A DNA stretch of 38,240 bases, taken from positions 1 to 38,240 of the forward strand of contig CAMDKK010000038.1 in assembly GCA_945901045.1 (NCBI GenBank), written 5' to 3'. Source of the stretch: Limnohabitans sp. Rim8. Its GTDB lineage: Bacteria > Pseudomonadota > Gammaproteobacteria > Burkholderiales > Burkholderiaceae_C. The position numbers and the translations under genes are program-made. Positions 16,286 through 29,028 of the stretch are shown piece after piece. Positions within the stretch are counted from its first letter, which is position 1. Each line of letters opens with the position of its first letter. A model generated the notes under the pieces. It searched no databases, was not told the origin of the DNA, and worked only from the letters and a program-made list of their open reading frames with translations.

Positions 16286-17176
16286 TTATGAAGGGATAAA
16301 TTTAGCCGCAAATGTTCCCGATTTGTCTTCAATTTCTGTGACATGGGGCGCGCCGAAATGGGTCGGAAAAAGTTTGGCGCCGGTCTCTGCGCAATAGCAC
16401 AGCATGCGCCGACGTGTGGCCCGGGCTTGCTCAGGATTTTGACAAAACTGGGTGTTCCAATCAGGCGCGTAAATTTGGAGCGGGTGGTGAATGACGTCAC
16501 CACAAAATACACCCTGCCCCTTGGCATCGTTTAACTTGAGCAAGATGTGGCCTGGTGTGTGGCCCGGTGCGGGTTCGACCAACAGGTTGTCGTCAATTTG
16601 ATGGATGCCGTCGACCAATTGTGCTTGGCCTGCATCGATGACCGGAAGCACGCTGTCTACGTAGGCGATACGACGCGCCGGGTCATCGACAAGGCTTGGG
16701 TTTTTCGATGGGTCCCAGTAGTCGTTTTCAATGCGTGAAAAAAGGTACTTTGCGTTAGGGAAGGTGGGCACCCAGCGTCCATTTTGAAGGCACGTGTTCC
16801 AACCTATATGGTCTGCATGCAAATGCGTGCACAGCACCATGCTGATGTCGCTTGGCTGCACGCCTGCTTCGGCCAGTCGCTCTAAAAAAGGTGTGTTGAG
16901 TTGGTGAAATCGTGGCCACCAGTGGCGGTCCTTGTGGTTACCCGAGCAACTGTCAAGAAGGATGGTGTGATGCGGTGTTTGAATGAGCCAAGAATGCACG
17001 CTGGTAATAAGGGCGTCTTGCGAGGGAATGTAATGGTGCGGCACCAACCAATCCAAATTCTGATGCAGGACTTCGCGGTCGAAACCTGTGAAGTACTGCT
17101 CTGGGGGAAAGCTGCCTGCGCCGAGTTGCTCCTCGATGCGGGTCACCGTGGTGTTGCCGATGGTCCATTTTTGCAT
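16286..17176 (-). CDS. MBL-fold metallo-hydrolase
   Basis: A 296-residue protein. The metal motif CTHLHADHIGWNT gives His118, His120, Asp122 and His123; later ligands are in EPAPGHTPGHILL and VFCGDVIHHPLQI. This pattern fits the lactonase/organophosphate-hydrolase-like branch of the metallo-beta-lactamase superfamily. ATG 17176 is chosen over the 17212 frame because AGAGGTGCTC precedes it. It is the last gene of the nine-gene catabolic operon, 8 nt after the second permease. It may hydrolyse an ester, lactone or amide intermediate; the substrate is unknown. Confidence 0.92.
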   Translation of the reverse strand: MQKWTIGNTTVTRIEEQLGAGSFPPEQYFTGFDREVLHQNLDWLVPHHYIPSQDALITSVHSWLIQTPHHTILLDSCSGNHKDRHWWPRFHQLNTPFLERLAEAGVQPSDISMVLCTHLHADHIGWNTCLQNGRWVPTFPNAKYLFSRIENDYWDPSKNPSLVDDPARRIAYVDSVLPVIDAGQAQLVDGIHQIDDNLLVEPAPGHTPGHILLKLNDAKGQGVFCGDVIHHPLQIYAPDWNTQFCQNPEQARATRRRMLCYCAETGAKLFPTHFGAPHVTEIEDKSGTFAAKFIPS

Positions 17177-17184
17177 GAGCACCT

Positions 17185-17955
17185 CTAGGTTGTGGCGTTG
17201 CGGTGGTACCAATGTAGAACGTTGTGTTCTACAGACAAAATCAGCCGGTTGAGCAAGTAGCCCGTGGCCGCCAACAAGAAAATGGAGGCGTACATGTCGC
17301 TCGCTCGCATGGCGTACTGCATCGTCAAGATGTAATAACCAATGCCTGCTGAGCCAGCGATCATTTCAGCCACAACCGTGACGATCAGTGCGAGCGCCAA
17401 ACTCACCCTCATACCTGCCAAGATGTAAGGCAGGCTGGCAGGCACTGTGACTTTCAAAACAACCGCGATACGACTGTGTTTGAAAGTGCGAGCCACGGCC
17501 AGTGCGGTGGGTTCCACTGATCGGACGCCCGCCATGGTGTTGATCAACACGGGGAAAAATGCCGAAAAAGCCACCACAAAAATCTTCATTGCATCGTCAA
17601 TGCCCAAAATCAAAATCAGGGGCGGCACGATAGCGGGGATGGGAATGGGGCGAAGAAATTCGAGCATGGGCTCAAGTGATGCACGAACCCAGCGCATTGT
17701 GGCCATACACAATCCCAAGGCAACCGCGACAGAGACACCAGCAGCGTAGCCCAGCAACATACGGTAGAGGCTGGACCCAAAGACCTCGGGTAATTCACCA
17801 GAGCGCATGCCAGCGACCAAGGCTTTTGCAATCTCGGTGACGGGGGGCCAGTTGGTACTTTGCACCCAGTACAGTGAGGACAATTGCCACAACAACAACA
17901 AGCCTGCGACCATCACAAAGCCAGATGCGCGGGACAGCCACTTTTTAGACACCAT
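17185..17955 (-). CDS. ABC transporter permease, NitT/TauT type (second permease)
   Basis: A 256-residue inner-membrane protein with about six helices. The family motif FLRPIPIPAIVPPLILILG and the EAA-like loop ARTFKHSRIAVVLKVTVPAS (contact with the ATPase) are typical of SsuC/TauC-like permeases for sulfonates, nitrate, aromatic acids and similar small anions. It overlaps the amidohydrolase by 11 nt and is separated from the first permease by two genes. With only one ATPase in the operon, the two permeases may form a heterodimer, or this one may serve a related substrate. Confidence 0.93.
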   Translation of the reverse strand: MVSKKWLSRASGFVMVAGLLLLWQLSSLYWVQSTNWPPVTEIAKALVAGMRSGELPEVFGSSLYRMLLGYAAGVSVAVALGLCMATMRWVRASLEPMLEFLRPIPIPAIVPPLILILGIDDAMKIFVVAFSAFFPVLINTMAGVRSVEPTALAVARTFKHSRIAVVLKVTVPASLPYILAGMRVSLALALIVTVVAEMIAGSAGIGYYILTMQYAMRASDMYASIFLLAATGYLLNRLILSVEHNVLHWYHRNATT

Positions 17956-19555
17956 GCACCCACACTCCCCCTACGGCCGTGCCCAATACCTGTGCGTCGC
18001 GTAATGCATCAGGATCGCAGTCCACGGGATTGACCGAGAGCACAGTGAAGTCGGCCAAGAGCCCTGTTTTGATCATGCCACGCTCATGTTCTGAAAAACA
18101 CAAATAAGCGGCATCGCGGGTGTAAAGCGCTAAGGCTTCTTCACCGCTGATGGCCTGCAGACGGCCTACAGGCTCGTCACAGCCTGCAATGCTGCGACTG
18201 CGCGCTTGCCAAAGCCCGAGCAGTGGCTCAAAAGGGGTCACTGGAGAGTCTGAACCTCCGCCGACCTTCACGCCACCATCCAACCAACTGCGAACAGGCG
18301 TGGCCAAGGCCATCAGGGCTGCACCAAAGCGTTTCACCAAGATGGGGCCAAAGGTGTATTGCATGGAACACTGCGTTGCAACAGTGACCCCCAACTTGGC
18401 GGCCTGTTGGATGTTGCGGGCTTCTGGCCAAAGATAGGCGTGAATCAGCGAGAAGCGCAGATCACGCAGGGGGATCTCTTCGTTAATTTCGGAAAAAACA
18501 TCCAGCGCAATGTCGATAGCTTGACCCCCGACAACATGGACCCCCATGGACCAGCCTTGTTCAGCGCACCGCTTGGCAATCAGGAGAAATGTATCGGTAG
18601 ACGTGACCTGAATACCGCAGTTGCAGCGTTCATCCGGGTAGGGTTCTCGCATCAACGCTGTACCTAAGGATGCACCGCCATCCAAAAATAGTTTCACGCC
18701 ACCCAACTTCAGGGAGGCATCTCCAAAACCGGTACGCATTGCACTCGATGAAATTTGAGCCAGCGTCTCTTCGACTGGGCGGCTTGAATCTGCCAGGGGC
18801 ATGAGCACTGAGCGGACTGTGAGTTCGCCACGTGACCACAGTGACTGGTAAATTCGCATCATCTCAGGTGTGACGCCTGGGTCCATGATGCCGGTCAACC
18901 CGGCCTCATGGTAGCGCTTTTGGATGTTGCGCAATGCCAACTCTTGGTCTGTGGTCGAGGTGGGGGGCACCAATCGCGCAACGGGTTCAAAGGCGGGCGG
19001 CTCCATCAGAATGCCGTTGGGCACGCCCTGATTGTCACGCAGTATTTTTCCACCTTCGGGGTCGGGTGTGTGCAAATGGATACCCGCAAGTTCAAGTGCC
19101 AAGGTGTTGGCCACAGCGGCATGGCCAACACGAGGCAGGTACACAGGACGATCGGGGCAAGCGGCGTCGAGTTCTTGCCGTGTAGGGTAGCGCTGTTCCT
19201 GAAGATTCACCACATGCCAACCGCTACCGCTGCTGATCCAGGTTTCATGAGGGTAGGCTTGGGCGTAAGCGCGAATGGCTGATTGGATGTCGGCTATTGA
19301 GCGCGTTTGCGAGAGGTCAACCAGCCGGCTTTGCATTCCGGTCCAGTGCATGTGATTGTGCGTGTCAATAAGGCCTGGAACGAGGGTGCCCTTGATTTTT
19401 CGTGTTTCAGTCACGGCGCCCAAAATAGCGCGCACATCGGCTTCGCTACCCACAGCAACGATCTTACCCGCCACAATGCCTATGGCCTCAGCCCGAGGCT
19501 GAGCCGGGTCCATGGTGACGATCTCGCCCAGCAGTAACTGCGAGTGGCTTGGCAT
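17945..19555 (-). CDS. Amidohydrolase (YtcJ-like, amidohydrolase_3 family)
   Basis: A 536-residue protein. The N-terminal metal motif is LVPGLIDTHNHMHW, with His66 and His68. Later candidate ligands lie in VHVVGGQAID and FSLIHAYLWPEA, and GGSDSPVTPFEPLLGLW carries the conserved Asp. EHERGMIKTGLLADFTVLS is the typical C-terminal beta-sandwich signature of imidazolonepropionase-like amidohydrolases. It probably cleaves an amide, ring or N-acyl bond in the cytoplasm, as no signal peptide is seen. It lies between the binding protein (8-nt gap) and second permease (11-nt overlap), so it is part of the transport/catabolism unit. Confidence 0.92.
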   Translation of the reverse strand: MPSHSQLLLGEIVTMDPAQPRAEAIGIVAGKIVAVGSEADVRAILGAVTETRKIKGTLVPGLIDTHNHMHWTGMQSRLVDLSQTRSIADIQSAIRAYAQAYPHETWISSGSGWHVVNLQEQRYPTRQELDAACPDRPVYLPRVGHAAVANTLALELAGIHLHTPDPEGGKILRDNQGVPNGILMEPPAFEPVARLVPPTSTTDQELALRNIQKRYHEAGLTGIMDPGVTPEMMRIYQSLWSRGELTVRSVLMPLADSSRPVEETLAQISSSAMRTGFGDASLKLGGVKLFLDGGASLGTALMREPYPDERCNCGIQVTSTDTFLLIAKRCAEQGWSMGVHVVGGQAIDIALDVFSEINEEIPLRDLRFSLIHAYLWPEARNIQQAAKLGVTVATQCSMQYTFGPILVKRFGAALMALATPVRSWLDGGVKVGGGSDSPVTPFEPLLGLWQARSRSIAGCDEPVGRLQAISGEEALALYTRDAAYLCFSEHERGMIKTGLLADFTVLSVNPVDCDPDALRDAQVLGTAVGGVWVHGV

Positions 19556-19563
19556 GGCGTGCC

Positions 19564-20535
19564 TTACTTGACCGCAGTTCGGTAAAGCAAAGCTTTGCTG
19601 TCGAAAGGACCTTCGATCATTTTGTGCTTGCGCATCTGCTCGACAACCATGTCTATGCTTGCAGGGTCTACGGTCTTCTCATACGCGGGCAGGCTCAATG
19701 AACGGATCTGTTCGGGCGCCAAACGGGTGTAAGCAGAGATGATTTTGGTCCACTCTTCGGAGCCTTGGTTTTGGTTGGTCCAATCCACTGATTTGTTGTA
19801 GGCGCGAACCCAGCGATCGATCACGCCAGGGTTTTGCGTGATGAATGTTTTGGTCGCCGCATATTGACTCACAGGGATACGTTTTTGCACTGCGTTGTAG
19901 GGCCAAGCCACAATACTGACTGCATCAGACGCCACCCCTGCACTCAGGAAAGGCTCCACCACAAAAGCGGCATCTACGCGATCACCCTTGACGGCGTCGA
20001 CCATTTGTGGGAACGGGACCTCGAGGTAAGTCACGGCATCGGGGTTGCCGCCTGTGGCCTGCACCCAGGCGCGAGCGTACAGCCAGATGATGTTGTTGCG
20101 AGTGTTGACTGCAACGCGTTTACCTTCAAGGTCTTTGCCGGTCTTGATGGTGCTTCCTTTCTTGGCAATCAGGGCCGCAAGATCCGGTGTCTTGTCCCCC
20201 GTGTTGCTCCCTGCAGCGATGATTTCAAAGCCCAGACCCTGCTTGGCACCCAATACCACGGAGATGATATTGCTGAAGGTAATCTGGACCTGGCCTGCCG
20301 CCAGCGCAGGTAAACCCATTGCGCCGCCTGCAGTCGGCGTGGTGTCAACCTCCAAACCTTCGGCAGCAAAAAATCCCTTGGCGATGCCAACTTGCAAAGG
20401 GGCTGTGTCGATGATGGGGATGGTGCTGACCCGAATTTTTGTCGGTTGGGCTTGTGCGCCAGGCGTCAAGGCCAGCAGTCCACTGATCGCTAAAGTAGCG
20501 ACTTGCAGCAGTCGCTTGATTGAAGATGCATTCAT
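19564..20535 (-). CDS. ABC transporter periplasmic substrate-binding protein (NMT1/SsuA-like)
   Basis: A 323-residue protein with a clear signal peptide: KR near residue 7, a hydrophobic core and AQA ending near 29. The mature part begins TKIRVSTIPIIDTAPLQVGI. KGFFAAEGLEVDTTPTAGG, DLEGKRVAVN and FPQMVDAVKGDRVDAAFVVEPF are characteristic of the NMT1/SsuA/TauA family. It captures the operon's substrate in the periplasm. It lies 42 nt after the first permease, the largest gap in the operon. The ligand is not deducible; relatives bind sulfonates, nitrate, aromatic acids or pyrimidines. Confidence 0.94.
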   Translation of the reverse strand: MNASSIKRLLQVATLAISGLLALTPGAQAQPTKIRVSTIPIIDTAPLQVGIAKGFFAAEGLEVDTTPTAGGAMGLPALAAGQVQITFSNIISVVLGAKQGLGFEIIAAGSNTGDKTPDLAALIAKKGSTIKTGKDLEGKRVAVNTRNNIIWLYARAWVQATGGNPDAVTYLEVPFPQMVDAVKGDRVDAAFVVEPFLSAGVASDAVSIVAWPYNAVQKRIPVSQYAATKTFITQNPGVIDRWVRAYNKSVDWTNQNQGSEEWTKIISAYTRLAPEQIRSLSLPAYEKTVDPASIDMVVEQMRKHKMIEGPFDSKALLYRTAVK

Positions 20536-20577
20536 TTCAGACTCTCCTAATAAAGGTGGGTAAGTGGGGGTGATAAC

Positions 20578-21345
20578 TCAGGTTGAACTGGGAATGGCCC
20601 AAGGGATGGCTCTGCGCTCAAGTTGCAAAAACAAGTGATTGAGCGTAAAACCAAGAACGGCCAAAATCAAAATCCATGCGTACATATTGGCGACTTGGAA
20701 ACTGCGTTGCATGTCGATGATGAGGTAGCCGACCCCGCCTGTGCCCGCAAGCATCTCGGCGATAACGACCAGAATCAGGCCTAAGCCGAGACTGACACGA
20801 AGACCTGCAAAAATCATCGGCAAAGCGCTTGGTAAGACCACGGACATAAGTGCACTTGCGCTCGAATGTCCCAAGGTACGTGCGACAGCAAGCTTTACCG
20901 GGTCCGTCCCGCGCACACCTTGGATGGTGTTGACCAGCACAGGAAAAAAAACGCCCATTCCGACCACAGTCAGTTTCATCGCGTCACCCAATCCTAGAAA
21001 CAGAATGAGCGGTGGTAGCAGAGCCGGTTTTGGAAGAGGACGTAAAAATTCAATAAGGGGTTCAAACAAGTCATACAGCGCTTGAATGCGACCCATGAGC
21101 AGGCCTAAGCCAATCGCTAAAAAAGAGCCCAACAGATAAGCAGTGAACAGCAAATACAAGGTACTTCTGAGCGGCTCCCATAAACTGCCAGCAACAACAA
21201 TCCCAGCAGTTTTTGCAAGCACGACCGATGGCGAAGGTGTCAAAGCGACATTGACGTAACCCAAGCGAACAGCCATCTCGAGGGCGGCCAGAATGACGAC
21301 GATGGTCATTGCACCCAACGCTTTTTCAAGGGTCGATGATTTCAT
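20578..21345 (-). CDS. ABC transporter permease, NitT/TauT type (first permease)
   Basis: A 255-residue membrane protein with about six helices. FLRPLPKPALLPPLILFLGLG and the EAA-like loop ARTLGHSSASALMSVVLPSA match SsuC/TauC-type permeases. Its ATG overlaps the ATPase stop (ATGA, 21342-21345), indicating a coupled ATPase-permease pair. It is related to, but clearly different from, the second permease 2.6 kb further along the operon; both share the PxPxPAxxPPLILxLG stretch, suggesting an old duplication or a heterodimer. Confidence 0.94.
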   Translation of the reverse strand: MKSSTLEKALGAMTIVVILAALEMAVRLGYVNVALTPSPSVVLAKTAGIVVAGSLWEPLRSTLYLLFTAYLLGSFLAIGLGLLMGRIQALYDLFEPLIEFLRPLPKPALLPPLILFLGLGDAMKLTVVGMGVFFPVLVNTIQGVRGTDPVKLAVARTLGHSSASALMSVVLPSALPMIFAGLRVSLGLGLILVVIAEMLAGTGGVGYLIIDMQRSFQVANMYAWILILAVLGFTLNHLFLQLERRAIPWAIPSST

Positions 21346-22130
21346 GCCGGTCGCCCCAGAAGCATGGACAGAATCTCATGTCGAAGTGATAAAAATCGGG
21401 CAGACTCGCTGGTGCTGATACTGTCACGGGGACGAGGCAATGCCGTATCAATGACCTTGCTCACTTTGGAGGGACGCGAAGACAGCACCACAATGCGGTC
21501 AGCAAGAAAAACGGCCTCATCGACATCATGCGTGACAAGCACAGCGGTGAATCGGTGCCGAGTCCACAGGTCTAACACCAGGGCATGCAGTTCCAGGCGC
21601 GTCAGTGCGTCAACCGAGCTGAAAGGTTCGTCCATTAACAAAATGCGGGGTTCAGCTGCAAGTGCACGCGCTATGGTCACGCGCTGTTGCATGCCGCCGG
21701 ACAGTTGCCAAGGATAACGATGGGCGACATCTGCCAGCCCCACCATCTCCAGATAAAGAAGACTGTGCGCGCGAGCCCGATCGCGCGTCATGCCTGGCTT
21801 GTGTTCTACCGCAAAAGCTACATTGGCAAGCACAGTACGCCAAGGGAACAGTGAGTTGCCATACTGTTGAAACAGGTAAACGATGCCCGGTGGCGGCTCA
21901 TTGACTGCAAGACCATTGAAATGTACCGTGCCTGCAGATGCCGGGGTCAAACCAGCGGCGATTTGAAGCAGTGTGGATTTGCCGCAACCTGAAGGTCCCA
22001 CAATCGCTAAAAACTCTCCTTCCACAACGCTCAGGTCGATATGACCGAGTGCCTCAGTTTGCAAGAGGCCGGTACCAAATGTTTTTTGGATTCCGCTCAA
22101 TTCAAGATAAGGCTGGACCATATTGGGCAT
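21342..22130 (-). CDS. ABC transporter ATP-binding protein, NitT/TauT type
   Basis: A 262-residue ATPase. Walker A is GPSGCGKST (45-53), the Q-loop lies in LFQQYGNSLFPWRTV, the ABC signature is LSGGMQQR (143-150), Walker B is ILLMDEPFSSVD (Asp167, Glu168), and the switch His is in VLVTHDVDEAVFLADR. It powers import with the two permeases and the binding protein. Its start directly abuts the ferredoxin stop and its stop overlaps the first permease. ATG 22121 is a possible shorter start. It is the only ATPase in the operon. Confidence 0.96.
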   Translation of the reverse strand: MPNMVQPYLELSGIQKTFGTGLLQTEALGHIDLSVVEGEFLAIVGPSGCGKSTLLQIAAGLTPASAGTVHFNGLAVNEPPPGIVYLFQQYGNSLFPWRTVLANVAFAVEHKPGMTRDRARAHSLLYLEMVGLADVAHRYPWQLSGGMQQRVTIARALAAEPRILLMDEPFSSVDALTRLELHALVLDLWTRHRFTAVLVTHDVDEAVFLADRIVVLSSRPSKVSKVIDTALPRPRDSISTSESARFLSLRHEILSMLLGRPA

Positions 22131-22466
22131 TCAGTACTGTGTGGTGGGCAGTTGGACCGACAAACCGTTTAGGGCTGGGGTCAGCTGTATCTGGCAACTC
22201 AAGCGGCTGTTTTTATGGCGCAGTACCGCCGTAAATTCGAGCATGGCCTGTTCATCGTTGCTGGCTGGCGGCAATTGTTCTGTCCAATCTTCGTTCACTG
22301 TGACATGGCATGTGGCGCAGGTCAACAAGCCACCACAGTCTGCGGCAATACCGTCAAGGCCTGCATCGCTTGCGGCGTCCATCAGGCTGCGGCCTGGCCG
22401 GGTTTGCACAGCCGTTTCATGGCGAGCGCCATCGCTTGCAATCCTTACAAAGTAAACGGTGATCAT
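22131..22466 (-). CDS. [2Fe-2S] ferredoxin, adrenodoxin/putidaredoxin type
   Basis: A 111-residue ferredoxin. Cys44, Cys50, Cys53 and Cys91 give C-x5-C-x2-C-x37-C, the adrenodoxin-type cluster spacing, in DCGGLLTCATCHV and LSCQIQL. It is expected to carry single electrons to the Rieske oxygenase encoded two genes upstream. It abuts the GS-like gene (stop 22467-22469, start 22466) and the ATPase gene with no spacer. No ferredoxin reductase is encoded in the window, so the electron source must come from elsewhere. Phthalate-type Rieske oxygenases usually pair with a fused reductase rather than this kind of ferredoxin. Confidence 0.95.
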   Translation of the reverse strand: MITVYFVRIASDGARHETAVQTRPGRSLMDAASDAGLDGIAADCGGLLTCATCHVTVNEDWTEQLPPASNDEQAMLEFTAVLRHKNSRLSCQIQLTPALNGLSVQLPTTQY

Positions 22467-23945
22467 TCAAATCCTGCCAAAGTATTCACGACGGTGGAAC
22501 TCGGTTTTGTCCTCGGCCTGCTCAAAACGAAGTGCTTCTGCGCTTTTGATTTGGCTGTAATACGCGACAAAGTCGGCGCCAAAGGCGTTGACCAAGGCGG
22601 CGTCTTGGACAAGTGCTTCAAGCGCTTCACCCAGGCTGGAGGGCAGTTTGTGGGCTTGAGGGTTGTAGGGGTCGTCAGTGGCTTGCGGTGCACGCAGTTG
22701 GCGTTGGATGCCGTCCATCCCGGCATGGATTTGCGAGGCCATGTACAAATAGGGATTGGCGCCTGATTCGCCGAGTCGATTTTCAATGCGGGTGCTGCGG
22801 TCGCCGCACTCGCCAATCACGCGCAGCATTGCACCGCGGTTGTCCCGGCCCCACAAGACTGATTGCGGTGCCAATGCATTCGGTTTGAAACGCCCGAACC
22901 CGTTGGCTGTCGATGTACAAAAAACAGTCATGCCGGGGGCATGGGCCAGCAGGCCGGCCAGGTAGTGCTCACCCAAGTCGGACAGGCTGTAGCCCGCATC
23001 CAGTGGTGTACTGCCTTGAGCGGGCGCGTCGCGTTGAAATACATTGTGCCCGGTCGATGCGTCGACCAGTGATTGGTGCAGGTGCCAGCCACTGGACATG
23101 ATGTTGGGAAACGGTGGCCGACACATGAATGTGGCATGGTAGCCGGCGCGCCGCAAGGCCTGTTTGACGGCATTGCGAAACAGGACCATGTTGTCGGCTG
23201 CGGTCAGGGCATCGGAGACATCGAACACGGCTTCGACTTGGCTGGGGCCCATCTCGGCTTCCAGTGACAAAAGTGGCAGACCCAGCGCCTGCGCCGTCCG
23301 CTGCACGATGCGCATGGCCGGCTCGGCCATGTCAAACCAGGACTCGGTCAGCAAGTTGTAGCCGGGGTGGAGCATGCTCACGCGCGGCGCTTCGCCGGGC
23401 CAGGCGGCCAGCTCGGGGTTCATTTGCGCGTCGGTGTTTTCTATCTTGTAGATGTGGAACTCGACCTCCAGACCGCAGCGCATCGCCAGGCCCGCTGAAT
23501 GGAGGCGCTCCAGCGCGTGTTGCAACACCCGCCGTGTATCGAGTTCGACGGGGCGACCGTCCGGAAACCAGGGCTGGGCACGCAGCCAGCCGGTTGACTC
23601 GGCCCATGGCAGCAACTGAAAGCTGTCGGGGTCGGGCAGCAACACCAGATTGTTGGCTTGCCCAAAGCCCGGTAACGAGGCGGTGCCACCCGGCTCGAAC
23701 ACACTGAAGGCCGTGCGGTCTGAGCTGTCTTTGAGCATCAGCGTGCTGACCATGCCGACGCCATCGTCTAAAGCGCGCTGGAGCGCTGAGGCGACCAAGG
23801 TCTTGCCGCGGACCACACCATGCAGGTCGCACCAGCCCACGCGCACCAATTCCAGAGCACTGGCCTGCACGCGCTGCAGCAAACGTTCGACGGCCTGCGC
23901 ACGCGCTGCGTCATGCACGCCGCAAGAGATTGCGAATGCTGTCAC
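22467..23945 (-). CDS. Glutamine synthetase family protein (probable gamma-glutamyl-amine ligase)
   Basis: About 492 residues. The N-terminal domain has CDLHGVVRGKTL. The catalytic domain keeps GLEVEF (Glu160, Glu162), EMGPSQVE (Glu231, Glu238), SSGWHLHQSL (His288, His290), DNRGAMLR and TRIENRLGESGANPYL, matching metal, glutamate and ATP sites of glutamine synthetase. Such stand-alone paralogues (PuuA, IpuC, TdnQ/AtdA1) join glutamate to an amine rather than ammonia. The GTG start at 23945 overlaps the Rieske gene's TGA (GTGA); the longer frame to 24023 would run deep into that gene. Coupling to an oxygenase suggests it activates an amine substrate. The actual amine is unknown. Confidence 0.93.
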   Translation of the reverse strand: MTAFAISCGVHDAARAQAVERLLQRVQASALELVRVGWCDLHGVVRGKTLVASALQRALDDGVGMVSTLMLKDSSDRTAFSVFEPGGTASLPGFGQANNLVLLPDPDSFQLLPWAESTGWLRAQPWFPDGRPVELDTRRVLQHALERLHSAGLAMRCGLEVEFHIYKIENTDAQMNPELAAWPGEAPRVSMLHPGYNLLTESWFDMAEPAMRIVQRTAQALGLPLLSLEAEMGPSQVEAVFDVSDALTAADNMVLFRNAVKQALRRAGYHATFMCRPPFPNIMSSGWHLHQSLVDASTGHNVFQRDAPAQGSTPLDAGYSLSDLGEHYLAGLLAHAPGMTVFCTSTANGFGRFKPNALAPQSVLWGRDNRGAMLRVIGECGDRSTRIENRLGESGANPYLYMASQIHAGMDGIQRQLRAPQATDDPYNPQAHKLPSSLGEALEALVQDAALVNAFGADFVAYYSQIKSAEALRFEQAEDKTEFHRREYFGRI

Positions 23946-25315
23946 GCCGGAACTTTGTGGTGCTGTATCCACGGCGCCCCATCGCGCTTGGCCTGAGCTT
24001 GTGCTTTCCACCAAGTGCCCCAAGTGCCTGCGGGTGCAATGCCATCAACCGTGTCGGGTCCTTGTTGGTGTGCGGACTCTGCAGGATTGGCCATGAAAGG
24101 CGCAGAACCACCCGCCTGAACCGTGGCAATGGCCTGCAGCAAAAGGCGGCGATTGGCCATGATCACTTTGTCTGTGGTGCCCAGGTGTTCGCGGGTGCGG
24201 TCCTGGATGGCGCCCATGCTCTCTACCGCCCATTGGTCGTGCACATTGATATCGTCTTCACCCATCCCGAGGTAGGTGGACTCGCGTTGCTCTTGGGGGT
24301 TAAAACCCCAGCCGTTGTGGCGTCCCGATTTCGGGATGTACATCGGTGGCGGGATGTACTGAGTGCGCTGGTTGCGCATAGCTTGTTTGTCGACAGGGCC
24401 TGCAAAACTGGTGAAGAACGAGTACCAGTAGGTGTGCGTGTCATCGATCGGCACATGCATCTGGGTGATGGTGAGCGTCTCAGAAAGCGGGATCACAAAG
24501 GTCTGAGGGAAAATTTCATGCGTCACCCGCACATGCGTCAGTTCCTCGGTCATGGGCCTCAGCGTGGTGAGTTGTAAGCCCCATGGTTTTTGCTCGAAGC
24601 TGATCTCGGGTTGGCAGAACTCGCGCATGATGCGCGTCATCGGCCAGCGCTCGCCCTTGAACTCGCCCGCACTGGCACTGCGAAATTGTTTGCCGCCCGG
24701 GTTGTCGCCGATGCCTTCAAGGGATTCGTCGTTCAAAAAGCGGTGCAAAAAAGACGTGTGTGACGGATCGATACCGACTTCGAAGGCCTGAAGCCAATTG
24801 CATTGCCACATGCCCTTGAAGGCAAACACATGGCTCGACGGCGCAGCAAAACAATCGAATTTCGGAAATGGTGGCGCTTGGCCTTCTTCACCCATCCAGG
24901 CAAACAGAACGCCGCTTTGTTCCATCACCGGGTAGCTGCGTTGTTTGACGCGTTCACACAGTTTGCTGCCCACCGGCTCGCCCGGGGTCTCCAGGCATTG
25001 GCCTGAAGCGTCGAATTTCCAGCCATGAAAGGGGCAACGCACGCCATCGCCTTCATGCCGGCCAAAAGCCAGGTCGGCGCCGCGGTGCGGGCAGTCGCGA
25101 TCAATCAAGCCCCAACGACTCTGATCGTTTTTGAACAGCACCAAGTCTTGACCCAGCAGGCGAACGGCTTTCAAGGGGCGTTCAGCCATGCGTGGCTCCA
25201 ACAGGGGGTCAAACTCATCCAACAAAGCCACAGGCTGCCAGTACTGCCGCAGCAAGGCGCCACACGGTGTGCCTGGCCCAATCCGGGTCAAAAGCTCGTT
25301 TTGCTCTGCTTTCAT
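23942..25315 (-). CDS. Rieske non-haem iron oxygenase, phthalate-dioxygenase-like alpha subunit
   Basis: A 457-residue protein. The Rieske cluster motif is CPHRGAD then CPFHGW, with Cys75, His77, Cys94 and His97 (C-x-H-x16-C-x2-H). The mononuclear iron motif is EVGIDPSHTSFLH (Asp183, His186, His191). ESMGAIQDRTREHLGTTDK is typical of the phthalate 4,5-dioxygenase-like group, which is alpha-only. ATG 25315 is preceded by AGAGGA; TTG 25318 is an alternative. It is first in the nine-gene operon, with a GntR regulator divergent from it. It should hydroxylate or dealkylate an aromatic or N-containing compound; the exact reaction cannot be read. Confidence 0.95.
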   Translation of the reverse strand: MKAEQNELLTRIGPGTPCGALLRQYWQPVALLDEFDPLLEPRMAERPLKAVRLLGQDLVLFKNDQSRWGLIDRDCPHRGADLAFGRHEGDGVRCPFHGWKFDASGQCLETPGEPVGSKLCERVKQRSYPVMEQSGVLFAWMGEEGQAPPFPKFDCFAAPSSHVFAFKGMWQCNWLQAFEVGIDPSHTSFLHRFLNDESLEGIGDNPGGKQFRSASAGEFKGERWPMTRIMREFCQPEISFEQKPWGLQLTTLRPMTEELTHVRVTHEIFPQTFVIPLSETLTITQMHVPIDDTHTYWYSFFTSFAGPVDKQAMRNQRTQYIPPPMYIPKSGRHNGWGFNPQEQRESTYLGMGEDDINVHDQWAVESMGAIQDRTREHLGTTDKVIMANRRLLLQAIATVQAGGSAPFMANPAESAHQQGPDTVDGIAPAGTWGTWWKAQAQAKRDGAPWIQHHKVPA

Positions 25316-25339
25316 CAAGAGTTCCTCTGAATTTTAAAA

Positions 25340-25349
25340 CGGTATACCG
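25340..25349. promoter_or_regulatory. Perfect palindrome CGGTATACCG, candidate GntR/FCD operator
   Basis: A 10-bp perfect palindrome in the 63-nt gap between the divergent Rieske operon and the GntR regulator. The GGT-AT-ACC core resembles operators of the FadR/FCD branch of GntR regulators. It lies 24 nt before the Rieske start and 29 nt before the regulator start, well placed to control both. Confidence 0.6.
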
Positions 25350-25378
25350 AAATTTTGATTCAGTGTACAGTCAGGGGC

Positions 25379-26101
25379 ATGAGTTTGCAAGAAACCGTTT
25401 TACTGCAGTTGCGCGAATGCATTTTGCGTGGTGAGTTCGAGCCTGGGCGGCGTTTGGCGGAGCAGCAAATTGCCGAGCTTCTGGGTTCATCGCGCACGCC
25501 CGTTCGCGCTGCGCTGGTCACCTTGGAGCAAGAGGGCCTTGTGCAAGCCAATGACACGGGCGGCTTTGTGGTGCGCCAGTTTTCGGTGCGCGAGGTGACG
25601 GATGCGATCACAGTGCGTGGCCACCTGGAAGGACTTGCTGCAAGGCTGGTGGCCGAGCACGGGCTCTCGCGGCAAGTGGCACTCGACTTGCAATCTTGTC
25701 TGGACGAAGGCGATGTGGCGCTGGCACCCAACCCCTTGTCGATGGACGACTATGCCCGCTATGTCAGCATGAACGATCGCTTTCATGCCCTCATTTTGGA
25801 GGCCAGCGGCAATCGGGCCTTGCAACGTGCGGTGGCGATGAATGACAAGCTGCCTTTCGCGTCAGCCTCGGCCATGCTGCCCATGCAAGGCTCGATGGTG
25901 AAGGACCGTGACTGGATGCTGTATGCACACCGGCAACACCACATGCTGCTCGATGCGATGCGGCGCGGCGAAGGCGCGCGCGCCCAAGCCTTGGCGCAAG
26001 AACATACTGAAGTGGCCCAAATGAACATGCGACAAGCCTTGGAGCGGCGCAGCGAAGCCGAGCAACTGATGCCTGCGATGCGCTTGGTGGTCGGTCGTTA
26101 A
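25379..26101 (+). CDS. GntR family transcriptional regulator with FCD domain
   Basis: A 240-residue regulator. The N-terminal winged helix has EFEPGRRLAEQQIAELLGSS followed by RTPVRAALVTLEQEGLV, the GntR signature. The C-terminal FCD effector domain includes YVSMNDRFHALILEASGNRAL with a typical metal/ligand His. ATG 25379 is chosen; the 25355 frame would overlap the intergenic control region. It is divergent from the nine-gene operon and probably represses it until the pathway substrate or an intermediate binds. The palindrome at 25340-25349 is its likely site. MmgE/PrpD follows 93 nt downstream with its own promoter. Confidence 0.95.
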   Translation: MSLQETVLLQLRECILRGEFEPGRRLAEQQIAELLGSSRTPVRAALVTLEQEGLVQANDTGGFVVRQFSVREVTDAITVRGHLEGLAARLVAEHGLSRQVALDLQSCLDEGDVALAPNPLSMDDYARYVSMNDRFHALILEASGNRALQRAVAMNDKLPFASASAMLPMQGSMVKDRDWMLYAHRQHHMLLDAMRRGEGARAQALAQEHTEVAQMNMRQALERRSEAEQLMPAMRLVVGR

Positions 26102-26194: not shown

Positions 26195-27577
26195 ATGACC
26201 GCACGCAATACCACCGTCACAGCTGAAGCCAATGCGCCAGCTGTGACCGCCATGTTGGCCGATTTCGTGGCCAGCCATCCGTCTCAAGGCTGGAGCGACG
26301 AGGTCGAACAACAAGCGCACCGCACCTTTGCCAACTGGGCCGGTTGTGCTGTGGGCCCTAGCACCCACGAAACCGTGGAGGCCGCTTTGGCCGCTGTCCA
26401 AGAGCTCGAACCAGCGCCTCAAGCCGCATTGCTCGGCCGCAGTGAGCGCGTCGACATGGCCAATGCAGCCATGATCAACGGCATCAGCTCGCACACCTTT
26501 GACTTTGACGACACGCACCTGAAAACCATCATCCACCCCGCAGGTCCTGTGGCTTCGGCGGTATTGGCCTTGGGTGAGCATTTGGGGGCGTCAGGCCGCC
26601 AAGTGATTGACGCCTTGGTGCTTGGGGTGGAGGTCTCCTGCCGCGTTGGGAATGCGGTGTACCCGCATCACTACGACCGAGGTTGGCACATCACCGGCTC
26701 CACCGGCATGTTGGGCAGCGCCGCAGCGTGCGCACGCTTGCTCGGTTTGGACGCAGCGCACACGCAAATGGCCTTGGGCATTGCGGCTTCTCAGCCTGTG
26801 GGCTTGCGCGAGCAGTTCGGCACCATGACCAAGCCTTTCCATCCCGGCGCAGCGGCCAAAGCCGGTTTGATGTCTGCCCTCATGGCGCGCCATGGTTTCA
26901 CCTCTTCACGCCGTGCGCTGGAGGCACCGCGCGGTTTAATGCAGGTGTTTTCGGACAAAACCGATTGGGCCGAGATCACCGAAAACCTGGGCACAAGTTG
27001 GGAGATCGCCCTCAACACCTACAAGCCTTTTGCCTGCGGCATCGTGATTCACCCCGCTATCGATGCGTGTGTGCAATTGCGCAAGCAACACGGCCTGACC
27101 GCTGACCAGATCGCCCGCATCACTGTGCGCGCCCACCCGCTGGTGCAAGAGCTGACCGGCAAGAAAACCCCGCAAACAGGACTGGAAAGCAAGTTCAGCG
27201 TCTTCCATTCGTGTGCCGTGGCGATCATGAAGGGCCAAGCCGGTGAGCATGAGTATTCGGATGAGATGGTCTTGTCCCCCGCCACCATCGCCTTGCGCGA
27301 CCGCGTCGAGTTGGTTGTCGACCGGGCGATCCACGAAGCCTCGGTGGACGTGACCATCGAGACCACCGATGGGCGCAGTCTGCACATCTACATCGAGCGT
27401 GCGATAGGCAGTCTGGAAAAACCGATGACCGGCACCTTGCTGAAAGCTAAATTTGTCGATCAAAGCGCGCCCATCATTGGTCAGGCGCAGTCTGATACCG
27501 CTTGGGACTTGTGCATGAGTTTGGCAGCGCAGCCGGACTTGAAAGCGCTGCTGCAGAGTCTGACGCGTCAGGCTTGA
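26195..27577 (+). CDS. MmgE/PrpD family protein
   Basis: A 460-residue protein of the MmgE/PrpD family, which includes 2-methylcitrate dehydratase and cis-aconitate decarboxylase. Recognisable segments are ANAAMINGISSHTFDFDDTH (the conserved helix with DFDDTH), VSCRVGNAVYPHHYDRGWH, FGTMTKPFHPGAAAKAGL and TYKPFACGIVIHPAIDA. Family members act on carboxylic acids by dehydration, decarboxylation or isomerisation. It is preceded by a near-consensus promoter and by the GntR gene. It could process a late intermediate of the neighbouring pathway, but no other methylcitrate gene is present, so PrpD function proper is unlikely. Confidence 0.92.
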   Translation: MTARNTTVTAEANAPAVTAMLADFVASHPSQGWSDEVEQQAHRTFANWAGCAVGPSTHETVEAALAAVQELEPAPQAALLGRSERVDMANAAMINGISSHTFDFDDTHLKTIIHPAGPVASAVLALGEHLGASGRQVIDALVLGVEVSCRVGNAVYPHHYDRGWHITGSTGMLGSAAACARLLGLDAAHTQMALGIAASQPVGLREQFGTMTKPFHPGAAAKAGLMSALMARHGFTSSRRALEAPRGLMQVFSDKTDWAEITENLGTSWEIALNTYKPFACGIVIHPAIDACVQLRKQHGLTADQIARITVRAHPLVQELTGKKTPQTGLESKFSVFHSCAVAIMKGQAGEHEYSDEMVLSPATIALRDRVELVVDRAIHEASVDVTIETTDGRSLHIYIERAIGSLEKPMTGTLLKAKFVDQSAPIIGQAQSDTAWDLCMSLAAQPDLKALLQSLTRQA

Positions 27578-27685: not shown

Positions 27686-28156
27686 ATGGAACGCATCACC
27701 ATTTCTATCGAACCTGAGTTGGCAGCCATTTTGGACCAATTGACCGAGAAGCATGGTTACACCTCCCGGTCTGAGGCGATGCGTGACCTGATCCGGGGCT
27801 GGCATTCGCAAGATGCTTTGCGGCAAAACGAGAGTTCGCATTGCATCGCGCACATTGGCTATGTGTACAACCACCATGACCGCACCATGGCCGAGCGCAT
27901 GGCCAACATTCAGCATGATCACCATGACCTGACGGTGTCCAGCATGCATGTGCATTTGGACCACGATCATTGTCTGGAAGTTGCATTTTTAAAAGGACCC
28001 ACCAAAGAGGTGCGGCAATTTGCAAACCGCTTGGTGGCGCAAACAGGCGTGCGTCACGGCTCGGTGAACATCGTACCCGTGCATTTGGCTTTAGGCGGCG
28101 AAGGACATGACCACGGGAATGGTGCTTACCATGTTCATCTTCAACCCGCGAGCTGA
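27686..28156 (+). CDS. nikR: Nickel-responsive regulator NikR
   Basis: A 156-residue protein with an N-terminal ribbon-helix-helix (ITISIEPELAAILDQL, YTSRSEAMRDLIRG) and a C-terminal ACT-like metal domain. Expected nickel ligands by alignment to the E. coli protein are His77, His88, His90 and Cys96 in QHDHHD and HVHLDHDHCLE, and RHGSVNIVPVHL follows. It has an extra His-rich tail (GEGHDHGNGAYHVH). It represses nickel uptake when nickel is plentiful. It is convergent with a NiCoT transporter, its likely target, with 14 nt between the stops. Confidence 0.97.
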   Translation: MERITISIEPELAAILDQLTEKHGYTSRSEAMRDLIRGWHSQDALRQNESSHCIAHIGYVYNHHDRTMAERMANIQHDHHDLTVSSMHVHLDHDHCLEVAFLKGPTKEVRQFANRLVAQTGVRHGSVNIVPVHLALGGEGHDHGNGAYHVHLQPAS

Positions 28157-28170
28157 GCTGACAGCCGCAT

Positions 28171-29028
28171 TCAATGCACAACAAAAGGTGGCGTTGTCTG
28201 GTGACCTGCAACCACTGCCCCGTGGGCATGAACATGGGCTGTTTTGACCTCAGCGTTTAGACGCCAGTGGCTCCAGCCGTACACACAAAGCAGAGACGCT
28301 GTAAGTCCCAGGCCAATCCAGCCGCCCCAGTCATCCCATACAGTTTCCAGCGCCGGCATGTGCTGACTGCCATGGCTGACCACCACCACGAGCAGCGCCA
28401 TGCAAGCGATCACGCCACTCATCCAGCGGCCCGCGTGCTTCGCCAGCTTGTCGTTTCGGCGCACCAGCCAGTGCATGACCAGGCCGTTAGCCGTGTCGGC
28501 CAGCATCATGCCCAAACCAAAGCAGAAGGCGAGCAAAACGATCACGCCCAAGCCCCCCAGTTCATGTCCCTTGGCGGCCATCAAGCCGGCTTGTGCCAAA
28601 GAGTCAAAAGAAATGGCAAATGCAAAACCCACACCCATCGGGTGCGCCAGCGGACCCATGGCCCGCAGGATCATGCTTTGAACCGGACCTGTGACATGGC
28701 TGTGCGCAGGCCCTGCCCAGCATTGGCGCAGATTGGCAGCCGCCAACCAAAGTAAAAAAACCGTTGAGACCCACAAGCCAATGGCGTCCAGCCATTGCGG
28801 TAATTGAATGCCTTGCCAGTAAAAAATCAGCGTCGCGAGCAAGAGGGTCAGGCTGTGACCGCAGGCAAACTGCAAGCCCGCCAAACGCGCAGACCCCAAG
28901 GCGTTGGCTTTGTAGCGCATACGGGTCAGACCGTCCACAGCAGCGATGTGATCGGGGTCCATGCCATGGCGAAATCCCAATGCGATCAGCAAGCCCAAAG
29001 TGACCCACAGTGAAGAGGAGGTGTTCAT
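28171..29028 (-). CDS. NiCoT family nickel/cobalt transporter (HoxN/NixA-like)
   Basis: A 285-residue membrane permease. RHGMDPDHIAAVDGLTR contains the NiCoT signature H-x4-D-H (His21, Asp26, His27). GLQFACGHSLTLLL and GFAFAISFDSLAQAGLMA match further conserved helices. NiCoT proteins are single-component, high-affinity importers of Ni2+ and/or Co2+. It is convergent with nikR. No nickel enzyme is present in the window, but the cobalt-type nitrile hydratase is, so cobalt supply is a possible role. A NikR-like half-site lies just upstream. Confidence 0.93.
   Translation of the reverse strand: MNTSSSLWVTLGLLIALGFRHGMDPDHIAAVDGLTRMRYKANALGSARLAGLQFACGHSLTLLLATLIFYWQGIQLPQWLDAIGLWVSTVFLLWLAAANLRQCWAGPAHSHVTGPVQSMILRAMGPLAHPMGVGFAFAISFDSLAQAGLMAAKGHELGGLGVIVLLAFCFGLGMMLADTANGLVMHWLVRRNDKLAKHAGRWMSGVIACMALLVVVVSHGSQHMPALETVWDDWGGWIGLGLTASLLCVYGWSHWRLNAEVKTAHVHAHGAVVAGHQTTPPFVVH

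Follow-up and report, generated by a model that had tools for sequence, protein, structure and literature searches.

The nine genes at 16286-25318 of the window (the whole 38,240-nt stretch of Limnohabitans sp. Rim8 DNA analyzed here) form an operon whose most likely role is to take up a charged aromatic amine, attach glutamate to it and oxidize it. Its core of oxygenase, ligase and ferredoxin, together with a divergent GntR gene, has the make-up of the sad operon, a tie drawn from gene make-up, genus and literature. As a whole, the locus is probably best explained as a catabolic operon that degrades a negatively charged aromatic amine under GntR control, with 4-aminobenzoate as the best single candidate. 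The comparison supplies this candidate substrate, a residue for mutation and natural clusters for testing.

Organization of the operon

The first-pass annotation had proposed a nine-gene minus-strand operon, and every ORF is indeed present in the ORF list, all on the minus strand, with intergenic distances along the operon of -82, 0, 0, -4, +42, +8, -11 and -28 nt. Pfam assigns Rieske and LigXa_C, Gln-synt_C, Fer2 and ABC_tran to the genes from the oxygenase to the ATPase, followed by BPD_transp_1, NMT1, Amidohydro_3, BPD_transp_1 and Lactamase_B from permease 1 to the MBL gene. The features are as follows.

25355..26101, plus strand: GntR/FCD regulator, divergent (ORF, Pfam; start from sequence and relatives)
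25341..25369, no strand: promoter/operator-like element between the Rieske and GntR genes (sequence, relatives)
23942..25318, minus strand: Rieske oxygenase, alpha-only, SadA-like (ORF, Pfam, motifs)
22467..24023, minus strand: GS-like organic-amine ligase, SadB-like (ORF, Pfam, solved-chain match, alignment, tree)
23730..23732, minus strand: codon of ligase Lys98, ORF numbering (alignment with NpaA1)
23715..23717, minus strand: codon of ligase Arg103, ORF numbering (alignment with NpaA1)
22131..22466, minus strand: 2Fe-2S ferredoxin (Fer2), likely electron carrier of the oxygenase (Pfam, profile models)
21342..22130, minus strand: ABC ATPase, nitrate/sulfonate/taurine type (Pfam, profile models)
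20578..21345, minus strand: ABC permease 1 (Pfam, profile models)
19564..20535, minus strand: periplasmic binding protein, NMT1, SsuA-like (Pfam, profile models, plasmid search)
17945..19555, minus strand: amidohydrolase, Amidohydro_3 family (Pfam)
17185..17955, minus strand: ABC permease 2 (Pfam, profile models)
16286..17212, minus strand: MBL-fold hydrolase, lactonase/organophosphate hydrolase branch (Pfam, profile models)

The first start of the Rieske ORF is a TTG at 25318, as against 25315 in the first-pass annotation. The TTG start of the ligase is uncertain, and 82 nt of its gene are shared with the Rieske gene. The promoter/operator-like element holds the palindromes TGTACA and GGTATACC, and its pattern TGTACACTG-N12-GGTATACC was found again in relatives. 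For the GntR gene, the ATG at 25379 appears the likelier start, since the TTG at 25355 lies inside this element.

The oxygenase carries the CxH-CxxH Rieske motif and the H-x4-H of the mononuclear iron site, and its closest solved structures include a phthalate 4,5-dioxygenase. The interval between the Rieske and ligase genes is free of any ORF, leaving the alpha subunit gene without a beta subunit gene behind it. Two traits of aniline-type clusters, an alpha-beta Rieske oxygenase and a class I glutamine amidotransferase, are absent from the families of the operon and present in the NpaA and pLME1 clusters.

Relation to sad and spread of the core

In Hydrogenophaga intermedia PBC, the sad operon comprises genes for an oxygenase, a glutamine synthetase and a ferredoxin; it encodes 4-aminobenzenesulfonate 3,4-dioxygenase and is described as conserved in every Hydrogenophaga genome then reported (excerpts of PMC5632844). 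The window belongs to the same bacterial family and likewise combines an alpha-only Rieske oxygenase, a GS-like ligase and a 2Fe-2S ferredoxin in one operon. It goes beyond sad in having genes for import, an amidohydrolase and an MBL hydrolase, and it contains no 4-sulfocatechol genes. The core as an undescribed combination is ruled out by the sad operon as given in those excerpts. The version with the added genes is rarer than the core (7 of 80 loci).

A window-type ligase is found in 53 of 67 genomes (41 of the 44 good ones) of the genus taken, from its matches to named loci, as Hydrogenophaga, and the L183 ligase from this inferred genus shares a 17-row ligase group with the window (support 100/100). 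In the 2012 cloning of sadABD, the ligase was reportedly required for activity in E. coli.

Because crude ORF calling misses genes and picks antisense ORFs, neighbor counts were taken from tblastn. The first-pass annotation had named rarity of the ligase and oxygenase as neighbors as telling against a shared pathway. Instead, the Rieske gene adjoins the ligase gene on the same strand in 142 of 148 distinct sad-type relatives, and the two lie side by side in 58/60 of a first set of loci. Divergence of the two proteins is correlated (r 0.89, 70 pairs). The Rieske search behind the pairing count took in four of 12 controls (L092, L096, L208 and L209), none of which gave a match; for L216, L217, L219 and L222, an alpha-beta oxygenase was taken from annotation. 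Ligase matches at E 1e-60, some of them of other types, are present in 88 of 399 sampled family genomes (Comamonadaceae). With the core present in many Comamonadaceae, the identity of its substrate would bear on how aromatic amines are turned over in freshwater and soil.

Ligase identity and the amine-binding loop

The nearest solved chain to the ligase is 8wwu (E 9e-104), taken here as NpaA1 because excerpts of PMC11335346 cite that code. The ligase scores far under the cut-offs of every GS equivalog model. These two results place what had been called a GS-like ligase in the organic-amine branch, not with glutamine synthetase proper. An alignment was built from the window ligase and 171 of 180 matches, rows with stops or with fewer than 400 aligned query residues being dropped; it includes 168 sad-type rows (148 distinct), with 12 other ligases as the comparison set. 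In a tree of 38 rows, a single branch parts the sad-type from the other ligases with support of 100/99.

In NpaA1, two glutamates of the amine pocket grip the amino group (PMC11335346, in part). This pair, a trait of organic-amine ligases (GoaS), is kept in all 148 distinct sad-type sequences. A second GoaS trait is a hydrophobic residue at the Glu-flap site, which is Leu in both the window ligase and NpaA1 and Glu in the GS chain, the glutamate of GS that forms the flap being the one we take it to be. The Gln-synt_C domain keeps its metal and ATP residues. The amine pocket sits at the interface of two subunits.

By alignment, Lys98 of the ligase corresponds to Phe75' and Arg103 to Ser80' of the NpaA1 amine-binding loop. 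Lysine occupies position 75' in 147/147 of the distinct sad-type ligases in which that position is filled and in 0/12 others, and it is present in 74/74 sad-type clusters at 80% identity. At 80', a basic residue is found in 146/147 sad-type ligases and in one of the 12 others. As far as sequence can indicate, the 75' lysine points to a charged aromatic amine as substrate.

The aniline and 1-naphthylamine systems (AtdA, TdnQ-TdnA, DcaQ and NpaA1-A5) resemble the window in that a GS-like ligase glutamylates an aryl amine ahead of Rieske dioxygenation (excerpts of PMC11335346). Unlike the window, they have an alpha-beta oxygenase and a class I amidotransferase. Their ligases are ~37-43% identical to the window ligase and carry Phe, Val or His at 75' in place of Lys.

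The importer and hydrolase cassette

The cassette of NitT/TauT importer, amidohydrolase and MBL genes occurs in seven of the 80 nearest named loci; the other 73 have the core without it. Co-occurrence of the nine families in this order, proposed as a check in the first-pass annotation, is seen in five loci (L098, L112, L133, L138 and L170), which is more than chance would give. L100 starts within the ligase gene and has the remainder of the operon, and L130 has five of the six cassette genes across the regulator from the core, with MBL not detectable. An importer block private to the window's genome is ruled out by the seven loci.

In the importer, an NMT1/SsuA-like binding protein is accompanied by permease and ATPase proteins of matching type. 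None of them reaches an equivalog cut-off, and their family membership therefore does not reveal a substrate. Importer type varies among lineages, in agreement with the earlier remark that the importer differs from known systems. At E 1e-100, the amidohydrolase was found in none of 398 other family genomes and none of 398 other genomes of the order (two overlapping draws, with three candidates scored in most genomes), and the phage collection gave distant matches only.

4-Aminobenzoate as candidate substrate

The gene neighborhoods of relatives suggest 4-aminobenzoate as substrate. Among 72,556 plasmid records, 10 carry a 4-hydroxylaminobenzoate lyase (PF16155) at 57% or more, and six of these also have a sad-type Rieske at 43% or more, which is found on 13 records in all, at distances of 2.2-10.3 kb from the lyase (record-overlap P 1.8e-21, with thresholds set once the data had been seen and with non-independent records). 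On the plasmid of Palleronia sp. LCG004, Rieske, NitT/TauT ABC, ligase and pcaGHCD genes are clustered. Like the window, this cluster has an alpha-only Rieske, a sad-type ligase with the loop lysine and a NitT/TauT importer, whose homologous binding protein is the best plasmid match (41%) of the window's own. It differs in gene order, in the adjoining protocatechuate 3,4-dioxygenase genes and in an unrelated CehA/McbA-type hydrolase that takes a place similar to that of Amidohydro_3. In N. resinovorum SA1, a degrader of 4-aminobenzenesulfonate (PMC5632844, in part), the Rieske/ligase pair lies on pSA3 near maleylacetate reductase. Plasmid clusters of Polaromonas JS666, Caballeronia insecticola and Cupriavidus pinatubonensis HN-2 share with the window GntR, Rieske, sad-type ligase, ferredoxin and loop lysine, but have their own FAD reductase, a class I amidotransferase or PuuD-like hydrolase and, where the window has its NitT/TauT cassette, a transporter of branched-chain or MFS type. 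LigK, LigA and LigB models score above cut-off on contig C6 of the window's genome. That contig is not the operon's, and LigAB and LigK serve many aromatics.

Other evidence runs against this candidate. The flanks of 140 ligase loci (four from a second ligase group, one aniline-type and the rest from the window's group, some duplicated) hold no PnbB (4-hydroxylaminobenzoate lyase), PcaGH or LigAB, and the lyase and pca links stem from the second group, which is 42-48% identical and is not resolved as one clade in the tree. The window's genome gave no homologue of the 4-aminobenzoate dioxygenase-reductase (best match 28%, partial), and no report of a Rieske/ligase pair for 4-aminobenzoate was found in a literature search that covered subscription journals thinly.

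The same chemistry could serve another charged aromatic amine native to the window's group, such as 3-aminobenzoate, aminosalicylate, aminobenzenesulfonate or a gentisate-route compound. The loop lysine suits any acidic aryl amine, and among the 140 loci a gentisate dioxygenase is found in 48 and a 3-hydroxybenzoate 6-hydroxylase homologue (E 1e-20) in 30, with gentisate-route representatives exceeding curated cut-offs. However, the gentisate genes follow their own MarR gene where order was read, further loci pair the core with a TRAP importer and have no gentisate genes, and both genes are missing from six of the seven loci with the cassette. A simple aminobenzoate that loses its amine through dioxygenation is not known to give gentisate. 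We regard another native amine as rather unlikely, and 4-aminobenzoate is retained as the best single candidate.

Proposed pathway

The NitT/TauT importer would take up the compound or its conjugate. The ligase, judging by the family it belongs to and by active-site residues that are conserved, would then couple glutamate to the aryl amine using ATP, and the family-wide pattern suggests that the loop lysine and arginine lining the amine pocket grip the carboxylate or sulfonate of the substrate. The alpha-only oxygenase would be supplied with electrons by the ferredoxin together with a reductase whose gene lies elsewhere and, by analogy with Sad and the aniline systems, would dioxygenate the nitrogen-bearing ring carbon to give a diol and glutamine. 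4-Aminobenzoate would in this way yield protocatechuate for cleavage by LigAB, the carboxylate counterpart of the conversion of 4-aminobenzenesulfonate to 4-sulfocatechol. In the weakest step of the scheme, the amidohydrolase and MBL protein may act earlier, releasing the amine by cleavage of an amide or ester.

The first-pass annotation had ordered the steps as import, glutamylation, oxygenation and hydrolysis; the first three are supported through analogy, and the placing of hydrolysis last is not. In that order, the amidohydrolase or MBL protein would strip glutamate after oxygenation. Both genes do lie within the operon, and a search run without a positive control found no gamma-glutamyl hydrolase homologue elsewhere in the genome. 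Yet the aniline oxygenase already converts the gamma-glutamyl amine into catechol, so that the diol is freed without such an enzyme and the class I amidotransferase serves only against excess conjugate (excerpts of PMC11335346). The core also stands without the cassette in 73/80 nearest loci, and the Palleronia hydrolase is unrelated. Late removal of glutamate is accordingly improbable.

With hydrolysis placed early, a broader proposal can be made tentatively: sad-type operons may constitute a widespread, unrecognized route for 4-aminobenzoate and its relatives in freshwater and soil bacteria, in which the ligase-loop lysine reads the acid group, the amine nitrogen is stored as glutamine at each turnover, the importer is swappable (TRAP, branched-chain, MFS or NitT/TauT) and the window's added hydrolases begin by releasing aminobenzoate from its conjugate, an amide or ester. 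The survey of the 140 loci makes this broader proposal less likely, and leaves the general reading of an operon for a charged aromatic amine as probable as before.

Isopropylamine is also activated through gamma-glutamylation (excerpts of PMC11335346), and the Rieske protein could by that precedent hydroxylate an alkyl gamma-glutamylamide. This aliphatic route is very improbable, given the phthalate 4,5-dioxygenase among the solved relatives of the oxygenase, the aromatic pathways that neighbor the genes elsewhere and the poor fit of a cationic alkylamine to a basic loop. Finally, an assimilatory glutamine synthetase beside an unrelated oxygenase would account for the conserved metal and ATP residues, but it is scarcely credible against the near-fixed pairing, the correlated divergence, the low GS equivalog scores and the presence in the same genome of two further ligases at ~30% identity.

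Gene content and conservation of the core

All nine open reading frames lie on the minus strand at the places claimed by the first-pass annotation, with intergenic gaps of -82 to +42 nt, and its gene labels agree at family level with Pfam and NCBIfam assignments.

Features of the operon and its flank
16286-25318, minus strand: Rieske oxygenase, glutamine-synthetase-like ligase, ferredoxin, ATPase, permease 1, binding protein, amidohydrolase, permease 2, MBL protein
From 25355 (start at 25379 likelier), opposite direction to the operon: GntR/FCD regulator gene
26195-27577, plus strand: MmgE/PrpD-family gene, immediately downstream of the regulator
27686-28156, plus strand: NikR-like nickel regulator gene, beside the operon's flank
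28171-29028, minus strand: NicO-family transporter gene, facing the NikR-like gene

The oxygenase, an alpha-only enzyme, combines a Rieske with a LigXa_C domain, and a phthalate 4,5-dioxygenase is among its closest solved relatives. For the ligase, the closest solved relative is chain 8wwu, a code cited in the accessible text on the 1-naphthylamine ligase NpaA1 (PMC11335346).

The core of Rieske oxygenase, ligase and ferredoxin had been called undescribed. This is wrong, since the sad operon of Hydrogenophaga intermedia PBC, as given in the accessible text of PMC5632844, already combines genes for a glutamine synthetase and a ferredoxin with that of 4-aminobenzenesulfonate 3,4-dioxygenase, the likeness being one of gene content. 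The core is a further occurrence of a known kind; what is new is the nine-gene variant, which brings an importer and hydrolases of its own. The same text reports that sad is kept in all Hydrogenophaga genomes known at publication, remarks that its original substrate was probably a natural look-alike, and names Novosphingobium resinovorum SA1 as a 4-aminobenzenesulfonate degrader. We found a window-type ligase in 53 of 67 genomes (41/44 among good-quality ones) of a genus taken as Hydrogenophaga because its loci best match named Hydrogenophaga loci. Near a maleylacetate reductase gene on pSA3 of strain SA1 lie a Rieske/ligase pair and genes for ferredoxin, FAD reductase and glutaminase.

The proposed fixed neighbourhood of ligase and oxygenase is borne out among sad-type ligases, with a Rieske gene at most 400 nt away on the same strand for 142 of 148 distinct sequences. 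Of the other six, one lies on a cut contig, one has the gene at 483 nt, one lacks a Rieske match and three are differently arranged. Among 60 loci around ligase homologues, mostly from the window's family, 58 have the Rieske gene immediately 5' of the ligase in the same orientation, and the ferredoxin gene follows in most loci. Ligase and oxygenase diverge in parallel (r 0.89, 70 pairs), a correlation that common ancestry by itself would also yield.

Several other genes were seen beside sad-type cores. In L034, L041, L043, L056, L130 and similar Comamonadaceae loci, a small ABM-domain gene follows the core, and beyond it lie a MarR gene and then 3-hydroxybenzoate, gentisate and TRAP genes. Three distant plasmids carry a small CHMI-family (tautomerase-like) gene immediately 3' of the ligase (L095 11596-11937, L213 9421-9774, L214 9368-9706). 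Upstream of the cluster on a Polaromonas JS666 plasmid are a CBASS oligonucleotide cyclase and neighbours (L093 2517-3422).

Ligase phylogeny and loop residues

In a 38-row tree, one branch (support 100/99) splits sad-type from other ligases. Among sad-type ligases, that of the window falls into one well-supported group with Hydrogenophaga, and the remaining ones (SA1, JS666, Caballeronia, Palleronia and others) form no single resolved clade. In NpaA1, the adjacent subunit contributes a loop to the lining of the amine pocket, and docking places Phe75' among the hydrophobic residues facing the ring (accessible text of PMC11335346). The aligned residue is Lys in all 147 distinct sad-type ligases having a residue there, and in 74/74 clusters at 80% identity. 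A basic residue (Arg, His or Lys) occupies position 80' in 146/147. The wider family contributed 12 further ligases to the comparison, several closely related to one another and some of no known function; in these, 75' is Phe (10), Val or His, and only one has a basic residue at 80'. On a Stutzerimonas stutzeri CSW02 plasmid (L096), a ligase 43% identical to the window's has His at the loop Lys position; an alpha-beta Rieske pair, a dioxygenase and maleylacetate reductase accompany it, perhaps as another glutamylation route.

Regulation and the importer/hydrolase cassette

In the divergent promoter region, the element TGTACACTG-N12-GGTATACC, with a spacer of 12 bases every time, occurs in 27 of 46 loci with a divergent GntR match near the Rieske gene, vs 5 of 92 without one, many of the latter being too short to reveal a regulator. 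Because TGTACA and TATACC in this divergent region are 17 bases apart, the element may be promoter and operator combined. The MmgE/PrpD-family gene may share the operon's regulon, since it is kept at 93-94% in L097, L098 and L101.

The six genes from ATPase to MBL protein are rarer than the core: they follow it in conserved order in L098, L100, L112, L133, L138 and L170, six of the 80 nearest named loci, and L130 (Polaromonas sp. 39-63-25) has five of them behind a divergent regulator. L097 and L101 lack this cassette although their flanking PrpD-like and acyl-CoA dehydrogenase genes match those of the window, so its presence varies at a single site. No amidohydrolase match at E 1e-100 was found in 398 other genomes of the family and 398 of the order (overlapping draws). 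An nfdA-like amidohydrolase, 27% identical to the window's, is on two 328-378 kb records named Acinetobacter phage MD-2021a (H87/H88), which may hold bacterial DNA.

Other importers adjoin the core elsewhere: branched-chain type in JS666, MFS in Caballeronia and NitT/TauT in Palleronia, and TRAP genes in many loci of the window's group (DctM homologue 45/140, DctP homologue 57/140). A charged compound would suit such importers; aniline itself would need none.

Candidate substrate and route

Members of the 4-hydroxylaminobenzoate lyase (PnbB) family convert 4-hydroxylaminobenzoate to protocatechuate. The Pfam model of this lyase matches proteins adjoining the Rieske/ligase pair in Methylobacterium nodulans and Caballeronia insecticola, and JS666 has a 34% PnbB match ~25 kb from its pair. 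Across 72,556 plasmid records, this neighbouring protein was matched 18 times at E 1e-15, and in 10 cases the identity was >=57%. A sad-type Rieske protein at >=43% occurs in 13 records, which include six of those 10, at distances of 2.2 to 10.3 kb. The formal overlap P of 1.8e-21 is not to be taken literally, the thresholds being post hoc and the records related. In Palleronia, whose binding protein is the best plasmid match to the window's (41%, among 8 records), the ligase is ~0.7 kb from a pcaGHCD cluster. Because the PnbB family makes protocatechuate and the Palleronia ligase adjoins pca genes, protocatechuate is suggested by both links, and with it 4-aminobenzoate as the starting compound; 4-aminobenzenesulfonate, the proven Sad substrate, is the corresponding sulfonate.

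A check of the flanking DNA in 140 loci (some duplicated, almost all belonging to the group of the window) argues against 4-aminobenzoate, since no PnbB, PcaGH or LigAB homologue was found there. The same flanks held gentisate dioxygenase in 48 loci and a 3-hydroxybenzoate 6-hydroxylase homologue in 30, and single representatives of these exceed curated cut-offs. Where gene order was read these genes are preceded by their own MarR gene, and they are absent from 6 of 7 cassette loci; we thus read them as neighbours, not as a product route, but because of them other acidic aryl amines are kept as rival candidates.

The window's genome has no PcaH over cut-off; its contig C6 encodes LigK, LigA and LigB, next to dehydrogenase-like and two amidohydrolase-like genes. 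The same genome gave only partial 27-28% matches to a JS666-like reductase and, in a search without positive control, no match to a PuuD-like hydrolase. Import, glutamylation and oxygenation, as first proposed, appear to be the right route, and hydrolysis as its last step is unsupported. Gene content, conservation, the arrangement of the regulator and the residue pattern are shown directly here, and every enzymatic step is inferred, as follows. The importer would take up the substrate, and the amidohydrolase or MBL protein would possibly split an amide or ester conjugate before glutamylation. The ligase would then glutamylate the amine at the expense of ATP, the Rieske enzyme would carry out 3,4-dioxygenation with loss of glutamine, and LigAB would cleave the ring.
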